Below are positions 6,107 through 58,317 of a stretch of 64,000 nt of DNA, piece after piece. The notes under the pieces are model-generated. The model was not told the origin of the DNA, searched no databases, and was given only the letters and a program-made list of their open reading frames with translations. The position numbers and the translations under genes are program-made. This stretch comes from Geodermatophilus telluris (GTDB lineage Bacteria > Actinomycetota > Actinomycetes > Mycobacteriales > Geodermatophilaceae), in the NCBI RefSeq assembly GCF_900102745.1, contig NZ_FMZF01000006.1, forward strand, positions 155,559 to 219,558. Reading direction: 5' to 3'. The stretch's first letter is position 1; each line of letters opens with the position of its first letter.

Positions 6107-6120
6107 CCGTTATCCCCAAC
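6107..6120 (-). repeat. Intergenic 14-bp motif, copy 1
   Basis: On the minus strand this reads GTTGGGGATAACGG, a full match to the motif found eight times in the window. It lies between the end of coaA (6187) and the start of the DUF5999 gene (5916), 191 bases upstream of the latter. The role is unknown; see findings. Confidence 0.9.
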
Positions 6121-6186
6121 TTATCGGCGCTCTCGCCCGGGGAGCGCGAGTGACGGAGGCAGTGAGAGGACGGGGGAAGGGTGCGG

Positions 6187-7149
6187 TCAGAGCTTGCGGA
6201 GCAGCACCCGGCGCACCGCGTGGTCGGCGGCCTTCTGCAGCACCAGCCGGGCGCGCGAGCGGGTCGGCGCGATGTTCTGCCGCAGGTTGGGGCCGTTCAC
6301 CGCGTCCCAGATGGACAGCGCGGTGGCCCGGGCGTCGTCGTCGCTGAGGCCGGCGTAGCGGTGGAAGTAGGCCGAGCTGTCGGCGAACGCGGTGCGCCGC
6401 AGGGCGAGGAACCGCTCGACGTACCACTGCTGCACGTCGGACTCGGCGGCGTCGACGTAGACGGAGAAGTCGAAGAAGTCCGACAGGAACACCTCGGGCA
6501 CCCGGCCGTCGTCGCGGCGGCCGGCCTGCAGCACGTTGAGCCCCTCGAGCACGAGGATGTCGGGCCGGTCGACCACCTGGCGCTGGCCGGGCAGCACGTC
6601 GTAGCTCTGGTGGGAGTACACCGGCGCGCTGACCTCGCCGCGGCCGGACTTGACGTCGGCGAGGAAGCGCACCAGGGCCCGCCGGTCGTAGCTCTCGGGG
6701 AAGCCCTTGCGGGCCAGCAGGCCGCGCTGCTCGAGGACGGCGTTGGGCCACAGGAACCCGTCGGTGGTGACCAGGTCGACCCGCGGGGCGCCGGGCCCGG
6801 CGGCCAGCAGCGTCTGCAACAGGCGGGCGGTGGTGCTCTTGCCGACGGCGACGCTGCCGGCGACGGCGATGACGTAGGGCACCTTGGCGGTGGTGTCGCC
6901 GAGGAAGCGGCTCTGCGCGGCCCACAACCGCCGGCTGGCGGTGACGTGCAGGGCGAGCAGTTCGGCCAGCGGCAGGTAGACGGTGGCCACCTCGCCGAGG
7001 TCGATGCGGTCGCCGAGGCTGCGCAGCGCCCGCAGGTCGGCCTCGTCCAGGGGCAGCGTGCGGTCGCCGGCCAACCCCCGCCACGTGGCGCGGTCGAACG
7101 CCGCGTAGGGCGAGATCTGGGTGCGGGTCACGGCCGTCACGCCGTCCAT
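6187..7149 (-). CDS. coaA: Type I pantothenate kinase
   Basis: The 320-residue enzyme phosphorylates pantothenate with ATP, the first and controlling step of coenzyme A synthesis. The P-loop GSVAVGKST is at residues 98-106, and the family segments TTDGFLWPN and EGLNVLQ follow; the length is as in other bacteria (about 310-320). The frame runs open for another 450 codons upstream, but the ATG at 7149 gives the family N-terminus and has a purine-rich ribosome site (GGGAGG) before it. It diverges from the GNAT gene at 7264. Confidence 0.95.
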
Positions 7150-7263
7150 CGTGCCGCCCGCCCTCCCGCGGGCGGGTCCCCGGGGTCCCTCCGCGGGGGG
7201 AGTCCGGGCCCGGGCGCCGGTCGTGGCGCGGCCGGCGGGGCGGCCCGCGTCTAGGGTGCCGGT

Positions 7264-8079
7264 GTGCCGACCCGCCCCGGCCTGCTCGACCGCGTCGAGC
7301 AGTACGCCGCCGCCGCGCCGCTGGCCGATGCGCGGGTGGTGCCCGTCGGGACCCTCGACGTCCCGATCGGCTCGCCGGCCTGGCCCTACCCGGCGCGCCC
7401 GCGGCCGGGCACGCGCACGGTGGGGGCCGACGACGTCCGGCGGGCGGTCGCGCTGCAGGACGAGGCGGGGCTGCCGGCCGCGGTGGAGTGGGTGGTCGAG
7501 CGGACGCCGTCGCTGGCGGCCGCCGCCCGGGCGGCCGGTCTCGTGGTGACGGAGTTCCCGCTGCTGGTCGTCGACGACCCGGTCGAGCTGCTGCTGCCGC
7601 ACGGGGTGCGGCTGTACCTGGTGGGGGCCGAGGACCCGCGGCTGCCGTGGTACCAGGAGCTGCTGGAGACCGCCTTCGCCCCGGACGTCGAGGTGGCCGG
7701 CGCTCCCGAGGGCGCGGCTCCCGACGGCGCGGCGGCCGAGGACGCGCGCACCGCGGTGCTGCGCGAGCGGGTGGCCACGGGGCGCACGGTGGTGATGGTC
7801 GCCGTCGAGGACGGGCGGCCGGTGGCGGTCGGCGCACACCAGCCGGTCGACGTCGGCGGCCGCGAGGTCAGCGAGGTCGTCGGGGTGGCCAGCTCCCCGC
7901 GCCGCCGCGGCCGGGGTGTGGGCGCGGCGCTGGCCTCGGCACTGGTGGCGCAGGCGCGCGAGACCGCCGACCTGGTGTTCCTCACCGCCGGCGACGACGA
8001 CGTGGCGCGCGTCTACGAGCGGGTGGGCTTCGCGTGGCTGGGCGCCACCGGGGTCGCCGACCGGCCGGCCCCGCGCTGA
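7264..8079 (+). CDS. GNAT family acetyltransferase
   Basis: A 271-residue protein whose C-terminal half carries the acetyl-CoA loop of the GNAT fold ([20 protein letters not shown], about residues 213-232) and the usual end [10 protein letters not shown]. The N-terminal half (residues 1-140) is less conserved and may hold a second, degenerate GNAT unit. The substrate cannot be told. TAGGGT at 7252-7257 ends 6 nt before the GTG, indicating a leaderless message. Confidence 0.75.
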
Positions 8080-8144
8080 GCCCGGCCCACTGAGCGCGGC
8101 CCACTGAGCCCGGGCCCCTGAGCCCGCCCCGTTGCGCCCGGCCG

Positions 8145-56199: not shown

Positions 56200-56283
56200 C
56201 ACGGCGGCCGACACCCCGCCGGGGGCTCGCGCAGACCGTGACGCGCTCGTCACGCCGCCGTGACGGGAGTCCCCGGCCCTCGC

Positions 56284-57213
56284 TCAGTGCTTCTGCGCGC
56301 GGCGCTGCCGGGCGGGGGCGACGACGCCCTCGGCCAGCCGCCGGGCGGTGACCAGGAACGCGGTGTGGGCCACCATCCGGTGCTCGGGGCGCACCGCCAG
56401 GCCCACGGCGTGCCACGGGCGGACCAGCGACTCCCAGGCGTACGGCTCGGTCCAGCAGCCCTGCGCGCGCAGCGCCTCGACGTAGGTGGACAGCTGGGTG
56501 ACGGTGGCGACGTAGCCGACCAGCACGCCGCCGGGGCGCAGCGCCGCGGCCACGGTGGGCAGCACCGCCCAGGGCTCGAGCATGTCGAGCACCACCCGGT
56601 CGACGACCTCCTCGGCGGGGTGGTCGGCGAGGTCGCCGAGGCGCAGGTCCCAGGTGGCGGGGACGCCGCCGCCGAAGAAGGCGGCGACGTTGCCGCGGGC
56701 GACGTCGGCGAAGTCCTCGCGGCGCTCGTAGCTGGTGACCCGGCCGTGCTCGCCGACGGCGCGCAGCAGCGAGCAGGTCAGCGCACCGGACCCGGCGCCG
56801 GCCTCGAGCACCCGCATGCCCGGGCCGATGTCGCCGTTGCCGACGATCTGGGCGGCGTCCTTGGGGTAGATGACCTGCGCGCCGCGGGGCATGGACAGCA
56901 CGAAGTCGGCCAGCAGGGGCCGGAACGCCAGGTAGCCGGTGTTGGCGGTGGAGTGCACGACCGACCCCTCGGGGGCGCCGATGAGGTCGTCGTGGGCGAT
57001 GGCGCCGCGGTGGGTGTGGAACTGCCTGCCCGGCTCCAGGACGACGGTGTGCAGCCGGCCCTTGGGGTCGGTGAGCTGCACCCGGTCGCCGGCGACGAAG
57101 GCGCCGGGCACCGGAACGGCCGCCGTCGGCCGCTCCTCCCCCGCCGGCAGGGGCTCCGCGGCCGGCGCCGGCTCGGGCTGGGGTGCGTCGGTCGGCTCGG
57201 GCTGCGGGTCCAC
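56284..57213 (-). CDS. trmI: tRNA (adenine-58-N1)-methyltransferase TrmI
   Basis: A 309-residue SAM-dependent methyltransferase that forms m1A58 in tRNA. Residues 1-36 are a Pro/Glu-rich extension; the N-terminal beta domain ([20 protein letters not shown]) and the Rossmann domain with [20 protein letters not shown] follow, then LDMLEPW and [10 protein letters not shown]. It matches Rv2118c in position. TAGGCT (57222-57227) ends 8 nt before the GTG. It precedes mpa on the opposite side of a shared intergenic region and is divergent from the RecB-like gene. Confidence 0.93.
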
Positions 57214-57300
57214 GGGCGGCCAGCCTAGGTGAGAGCGGTCCGCGGGCTCCCCGGCGCGGGTGCCGCGGAACTGTCGGTGGCCCGGCCTAGCCTCGGGAGC

Positions 57301-58224
57301 GTGACTGCAGTGTTCTCCTCCGACACCGCGGCCGACGGCGGGCAGGCGGCCGCGCCCGCTCTCGAACGGGTGCCGCGGCGGCCGTCGCTGTCGCCCAGCC
57401 GCGCGGCGGACTTCAAGACCTGCCCGCTGCTCTACCGGTTCCGCACGATCGACCGGCTGCCGGAGAGGAAGAGCGCCGCGGCGGTGCGCGGCACGCTGGT
57501 GCACGCCGTCCTCGAGCGGCTCTACGACCTGCCCGCCGCCGAGCGCACCGTCGACGCCGCGCGCGGCCTGGTGACCCCGGCGTGGGAGGAGCTGAGCGCC
57601 GACCCGGAGGTCGCCGCGCTGTTCACCGCCGGCGAGGAGGGCGCCGAGCCGCCGTCGCTGGAGACGTGGCTGGCCTCGGCCGGCAAGCTGGTGGAGACCT
57701 ACTTCACGCTGGAGGACCCGACCCGCATCCAGCCCGAGGGCCGCGAGGAGCTGGTCGAGGTCACCCTGCCCGACGGGCTGCTGCTGCGCGGGTACGTCGA
57801 CCGGCTCGACGTCGCCCGCAACGGCGCGCTGCGGGTGGTCGACTACAAGACCGGCTCGATGCCGCGGGAGGCCTTCGAGTCCAAGGCGCTGTTCCAGATG
57901 AAGTTCTACGCGCTGGTGCTGTGGCGCACCCGCGGCGTGGTGGCCAGCCAGCTCAAGCTCATCTACCTCGGCGACGGCGACGCGCTGACCTACGCCCCCG
58001 ACGAGGGCGAGCTGGTGCGCTTCGAGCGGACGCTGCTGGCCATCTGGGCGGCGATCGAGCGGGCGGTGTCCACCGGCGACTTCCGGCCCAACCGCACCCG
58101 GCTGTGCGACTGGTGCGACCACCAGGCGCTGTGCCCCTCCTTCGGCGGCACTCCCCCGCCGTTCCCCGCGGAGGCCGCCGCCGCGGCCGGCTGGCCGACG
58201 CTGCCGGTCGTCGAGCGCGACTGA
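57301..58224 (+). CDS. RecB-family PD-(D/E)XK nuclease
   Basis: A 307-residue stand-alone nuclease of the RecB/AddB type (Rv2119 family). It shows [18 protein letters not shown] at the start, [20 protein letters not shown], the catalytic VVDYKTG with its Lys, and a cysteine cluster [11 protein letters not shown] that probably binds an iron-sulphur centre. The biological role is not known. TAGCCT (57288-57293) ends 7 nt before the GTG. Confidence 0.9.
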
Positions 58225-58303
58225 CACCTCTCCCGCGCCGGGCGGTACCGCCACTCCTCACCGTTCCGCGCGCGGTGCTGCGTCCCCGTTCGGGTGCGGC
58301 TCA

Positions 58304-58317
58304 GTTGGGGATAACGG
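58304..58317 (+). repeat. Intergenic 14-bp motif, copy 8
   Basis: A full match GTTGGGGATAACGG between two convergent genes (stops at 58224 and 58372), where no promoter is expected. Confidence 0.92.

Follow-up and report, generated by a model that had tools for sequence, protein, structure and literature searches.

A candidate Tus/ter-like replication fork trap around dif in Geodermatophilaceae

Two unrelated replication fork traps, namely Tus/ter of Escherichia coli and other Enterobacterales and RTP/ter of Bacillus subtilis, are described in the literature, as represented by the excerpts cited here. Both known terminator genes carry a ter site within their promoter (PMC10331603), and Tus/ter exists in two-site (type I) and many-site versions (PMC8707476). 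Here, we describe a non-palindromic 14-bp element, with the consensus W-GTTRGGGATAACGG, in a 64,000-nucleotide stretch of Geodermatophilus telluris contig NZ_FMZF01000006.1 (referred to as the window, in whose coordinates all positions are given), together with a 285-amino-acid protein which is encoded at positions 33060 to 33917. It is considered highly probable that the element represents the ter site of a Tus/ter-like fork trap surrounding the dif site of Geodermatophilaceae chromosomes, with this protein as its terminator. Such a system would work in the manner of Tus/ter but, as far as tested, falls into neither known terminator family.

The organization of the locus resembles that of Tus/ter in several respects. 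In both cases, the sites are non-palindromic and reverse their polarity across dif, the protein is basic and comprises approximately 300 amino acids, and one site is located directly before the terminator gene, on the strand of that gene and on the far side of dif. The TerB core of E. coli MG1655 ends 14 bp before tus, on the tus strand, and the TerB and TerC cores are both on the plus strand to the right of dif; here, the copy at 33033 ends 13 bp upstream of the gene start. In contrast, the two proteins are without sequence relation, the fold predicted here being tyrosine-recombinase-like, the sequence of the 14-bp site is not that of ter, and the organisms belong to different phyla. Polar sites around the terminus are also shared with RTP/ter, in which RTP is autoregulated via a promoter site (PMC10331603), with only the promoter site as such being observed here. 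RTP, however, works as a pair of dimers that occupy a double half-site (PMC10331603), as opposed to the single 14-bp site of the present system, whose protein has a predicted two-domain recombinase fold and no Pfam match.

No actinobacterial fork trap was found in the open-licence literature, as judged by titles and the beginnings of abstracts, nor was anything found there on replication termination in Geodermatophilaceae or on a fork trap in Geodermatophilus. It appears likely, with somewhat less assurance than the assignment itself, that the system constitutes a third, independently evolved bacterial fork trap, in which a protein of tyrosine-recombinase fold, its catalysis lost, came to serve as polar terminator, equipped with dedicated ter sites and an autoregulated promoter, thus converging on the Tus/ter layout, including a two-site version in which opposed sites are approximately 150 bp apart in one genus.

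Polar array of the 14-bp element around a dif-like site

The initial annotation had placed eight copies of the element in the window, and all of their coordinates and strands proved correct (Table 1): six copies are exact and two contain one mismatch, with no further copy at exactly two mismatches. The claimed excess over chance was likewise borne out, as the number of exact copies expected from the base composition is 0.00017 for 64 kb and 0.012 for the genome, and the element read backwards does not occur genome-wide at up to one mismatch. None of the eight copies is located within a gene according to codon-position gene calling and Pfam, in agreement with the earlier claim, and those at 41601, 33033, and 16847 are only 10 to 15 bp from a start codon. 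The several hundred copies per genome that had been anticipated were not found: the genome (4.8 Mb in 12 contigs) harbors only 12 copies at up to one mismatch, 11 of which lie within 109 kb of one contig, where six minus-strand copies on the left are followed by five plus-strand copies on the right, the strand switch falling between 17127 and 33033. Orientation had been reported as not fixed, which holds relative to the neighboring genes but not relative to dif, where the strand pattern is fixed. A rough test of conservation at orthologous gaps, as had been suggested, gave a mixed outcome.

Table 1. Coordinates of the ter-like sites and associated features in the window
Feature	Position	Strand	Remarks
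ter-like site	6107..6120	-	Exact; left of dif
ter-like site	13909..13922	-	Exact; left of dif; upstream of a peptidase M50B gene (78 bp from its predicted start)
ter-like site	16847..16860	-	One mismatch; left of dif; ahead of an MFS transporter gene (15 bp from its predicted start)
ter-like site	17127..17140	-	Exact; innermost left of dif
dif-like site	19187..19214	-	TGTGCCGATAATGCACATTATGTCAGGT; consensus scan, resemblance to Frankia alni dif
ter-like site	33033..33046	+	One mismatch; innermost right of dif; in promoter of candidate terminator gene
-10-like hexamer	33048..33053	+	TATGAT, directly after the site at 33033, by eye
Candidate replication terminator gene	33060..33917	+	285 amino acids, start GTG; predicted tyrosine-recombinase fold
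ter-like site	35173..35186	+	Exact; right of dif
ter-like site	41601..41614	+	Exact; right of dif; points away from a DSHCT helicase gene, whose predicted start is 10 bp distant
ter-like site	58304..58317	+	Exact; right of dif; between convergent genes

A scan of the window with an actinobacterial dif consensus returned a single good dif-like site, which is located between the minus- and plus-strand blocks and agrees by eye with the dif of Frankia alni (excerpt of PMC3025954) at 24 of 28 positions. A related dif pattern has one match in each of 15 of the 16 relatives scanned, G123 being without a match, and dif is positioned opposite dnaA, at a distance of 0.46 to 0.50 of the chromosome, in 11 complete or near-complete genomes.

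The polarity of the copies was compared with that in relatives, the named ones of which share up to 96% identity with the window (Geodermatophilus); g1, g18, g19, and g21 to g24 refer to genera, while G and L numbers refer to genomes and loci, respectively. In all 11 g1 regions (the window and 10 relatives), dif separates the minus from the plus block, and the flanks of the element share little apart from one base, as judged by a sequence logo. All 72 copies with up to two mismatches in these regions have the right polarity; at three mismatches, 19 copies of right and 13 of wrong polarity were counted, which is near background. Across 10 genomes from three genera, all complete or nearly so, the polarity is right for 74 of 74 copies at up to one mismatch and for 66 of 66 when limited to 100 kb from dif, a count from which G072 (g19; one of two copies with the right polarity) was excluded. 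The remaining eight copies, which include the GTTCGGGATAACGG type in G013, G017, and G024 and two copies approximately 2 Mb from dif in G107 and G109, match the polarity, but they may occur by chance and some are probably not true sites. Members of g18 often possess one minus and one plus copy, with dif located between them in nine of nine loci having both sites in the examined stretch. In g19, only two sites are present, forming a divergent pair 162 to 166 bp apart (seven loci: L042 to L047 and L060). The stretch between these opposed sites is rich in G+C, and the pair adjoins the terminator gene. No comparable polar 12-mer was found around dif in G094 (g24), among 12-mers with at least four copies and at least three A/T positions.

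A polarity switch around dif is also characteristic of KOPS and SRS, the guide sequences of FtsK and SpoIIIE. KOPS are frequent, strand-biased octamers along the chromosome arms, unlike the 14-mer, which is rare and confined to the terminus. This part appears to be played here by the octamer CGGGGGAG, which was chosen as the most strand-skewed around dif in G064 and G072 and follows the switch at dif in 50 of 51 and 36 of 38 copies, respectively, counts which are partly circular because the octamer was selected on those two genomes. It also switches at dif in regions outside that selection (17 of 18 copies in the window and 27 of 28 in G094) and, with few exceptions, in five g1 regions, pointing toward dif from either side. 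The octamer is, from its sequence pattern, a candidate KOPS of Geodermatophilaceae, and its switch both corroborates the placement of dif and sets the 14-mer apart from FtsK guidance. The 14-mer was accordingly rejected as KOPS, given that only 12 copies exist, 11 of them in 109 kb, and that a separate octamer has the KOPS property. Sites of matS/MatP-type terminus organizers are palindromic and non-polar, and an assignment to this type was dismissed, as the 14-mer is not a palindrome and has a fixed polarity.

The candidate terminator gene and its product

A protein search detected the gene in 93 of 112 family genomes. At least two copies of the motif are present in 92 of these 93, as compared to 1 of the 19 genomes without the gene (Fisher p of approximately 1e-18, a value which ignores the kinship of the genomes); the 18 sampled genomes of g21 to g24 lack the gene and possess zero to two motif copies. 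Among 75 named loci (mostly of Geodermatophilus, Blastococcus, and Modestobacter, with one Trujillonella and some metagenome-assembled genomes), a site with up to two mismatches is located 12 to 15 bp before the start codon in 74, the distance being exactly 12 bp in 63, where the start was taken as the most upstream one at least 8 bp after the site. If this rule is omitted, the spacing is 12 to 15 bp in 41 of 44 loci and 4 to 6 bp in three, the latter owing to a start codon further upstream. One of the two g19 sites is found 12 bp before an open reading frame whose product starts with MRGGWQQPLP or similar, the window orthologue of which is the gene at 33060 to 33917. At most loci, a -10-like hexamer was seen by eye directly after the promoter site, and a bound protein would therefore cover the promoter; in the window, the position of TATGAT suggests a leaderless transcript. 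The frame behaves as a real gene, with 8486 differences at third codon positions versus 3532 and 3520 at the others, and specifies a basic protein of 31 kDa with a pI of 9.9.

The protein has no match in Pfam, PHROGs, or NCBIfam. Profile comparison (hhalign) and fold comparison both indicate a tyrosine-recombinase fold, composed of a core-binding and a catalytic domain. Pairwise comparison with individual tyrosine recombinases yielded no convincing match (best E value of 0.022), and only a seven-sequence profile matched. According to the hhalign alignment, which stops before the box II His/Arg and the nucleophilic Tyr, the position of the box I arginine (aligned position 128) is occupied by Pro in 44, Thr in 26, and Ala in 5 of the 75 sequences. 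On the basis of these comparisons and models, the product is probably a protein of tyrosine-recombinase fold which has lost catalysis.

Tus (PF05472) was detected in none of the 112 family genomes, with the E. coli positive control being detected, and profile comparison of the candidate with E. coli Tus gave a probability of 0.1%. RTP (PF02334) has no match in the candidate or 74 relatives at an E value of up to 10, a search which did not include the genome itself. Neither Tus nor RTP is among the structure matches listed, which excludes neither. No relatives were found in plasmids, phages, PHROGs, or viral contigs, and an origin of the protein from a plasmid or phage was set aside, there being no relative in those collections. 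Beyond the family, one marginal match among 397 genomes of the order (G408; E value of 7e-4) and three among 396 genomes of the phylum (E values of 0.002 to 0.004 per genome) were taken as chance; the two samples overlap and contain family members or the genome of the window itself.

Proposed mechanism and alternative explanations

It is proposed that the protein would bind every copy of the 14-mer as an asymmetric complex. A fork arriving from the ATAACGG end would pass, and one arriving from the GTTGGGG end would be stopped at this putative blocking face through arrest of the replicative helicase, such that forks may enter the region of dif and would not exit it. Bound to the site within its own promoter, the protein would limit its own expression in the manner of Tus and RTP. 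Of the candidates put forward in the initial annotation, a site for a replication or chromosome-organizing protein is upheld on the replication side, in view of the polar terminator-site pattern, but not as regards DnaA, which is unlikely given that the array lies opposite dnaA and co-occurs with a different protein. The target of an unknown regulator was a step in the right direction, the evidence fitting a terminator site whose binding protein is probably autoregulated. If the proposal is true, fork traps arise repeatedly and settle on one layout, down to the ter site within the terminator promoter, and a new scaffold for polar fork arrest becomes available for comparison with the Tus-ter lock and the RTP dimers. 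The variation within one family (approximately ten sites, two or three, a 165-bp pair, or none) would furthermore render the purpose of fork traps testable in related bacteria.

Several observations weigh against this proposal. The g19 pair in G064 and G072 is situated 19.5 to 20 kb to one side of dif and does not enclose it, and GC skew in these two genomes does not change abruptly at either the pair or dif. In g18, G055 has a reversed copy (two mismatches) approximately 150 bp from the promoter site; G054 and G056 possess minus/plus pairs 164 and 143 bp apart, with dif located in neither genome. G076 (80% complete) has the gene with no site found, and G087 (74% complete) has two sites and no gene. 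As regards the fold, mean pLDDT is only 64 to 67 in four of the five structure models, and TM-scores to whole recombinases are low, reaching 0.43 at best. A divergent pair of the g19 type would still trap a fork between its opposed barriers, though without enclosing dif, and GC skew was discarded as uninformative with respect to the meeting point of forks in g19.

The same geometry about dif, together with the g19 pair that does not enclose it, would also be expected if the 14-mer marked the terminus for another oriented process, either as a loading or stopping site of an FtsK-, SMC-, or MksB-type translocase or as a site of a terminus-domain organizer, with the protein as adaptor and not as a barrier to forks. 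We regard this as unlikely, since FtsK-like polarity resides on the separate octamer, which switches at dif even in g19, whose 14-mer pair lies 20 kb from it, and since a single site in the promoter of its own dedicated gene, along with as few as two opposed sites, is a better fit to known fork traps (excerpt of PMC8707476) than to a motif for loading or guidance.

The promoter site, and the proximity of other sites to gene starts (16847 and 41601), would equally suit an autoregulated transcriptional repressor with the 14-mers as operators, and a repressor of tyrosine-recombinase fold is known (excerpt of PMC10516654), the comparison being with MrpR (YopR) and the repeated element in phage SPbeta. 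MrpR, however, is a phage repressor without a polar array around a chromosome terminus, and operators would not be expected to point away from dif without exception (74 of 74 copies) or to be confined to the terminus; the orientation and distance of the sites relative to neighboring genes also vary, one copy lying between convergent genes. A repressor is, therefore, a very improbable explanation. The predicted fold, and the profile similarity to XerC/XerD, would accommodate an active tyrosine recombinase acting on the 14-mers as half-sites, an option with hardly any standing given that the box I position holds Pro, Thr, or Ala, never arginine, in 75 of 75 sequences and that the sites are single, asymmetric, and half-site-sized, in contrast to the paired dif-type site with its inverted halves around a core. 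Least credible of all, to the point of being negligible, is a DnaA-box-like titration site, a DNA-uptake signal, or a mobile repeat. The resemblance of TTATCCCCA to the DnaA box had been pointed out in support of the first of these, but only 12 copies exist, clustered at the terminus, their flanks share little beyond one base, and, of the 19 family genomes lacking the protein, only one has at least two copies. DNA-uptake sequences are present in hundreds of copies genome-wide, and the earlier suggestion of such a signal is contradicted by the 12 copies counted.

Individual copies and loci outside the array

The twelfth copy of the genome is found on a different contig (G000:C12:89972-89985) and represents a near-copy, GTTCGGGATAACGG. 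The surrounding stretch is conserved among this genome, G017, and G024 (L232 to L234), and, on the opposite strand, its codon-position composition is that of a gene, clearly so in two of the three and more weakly in the third; this copy was left out of the array because the stretch looks coding. On visual inspection, this stretch resembles an ATP-dependent DNA ligase gene. RbpA, which binds RNA polymerase, is encoded at 24537 to 24881 of the window, approximately 5 kb from dif. For the copy of the candidate terminator gene at L163:10001-10841 (Blastococcus sp. TML/M2B), neither a start nor a promoter site was found by script, perhaps reflecting a frameshift or a sequencing error. Finally, the protein is encoded in a record titled "UNVERIFIED_ORG: Bacillus sp. 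AZ43" (L122), which is probably a mislabelled Geodermatophilaceae genome.

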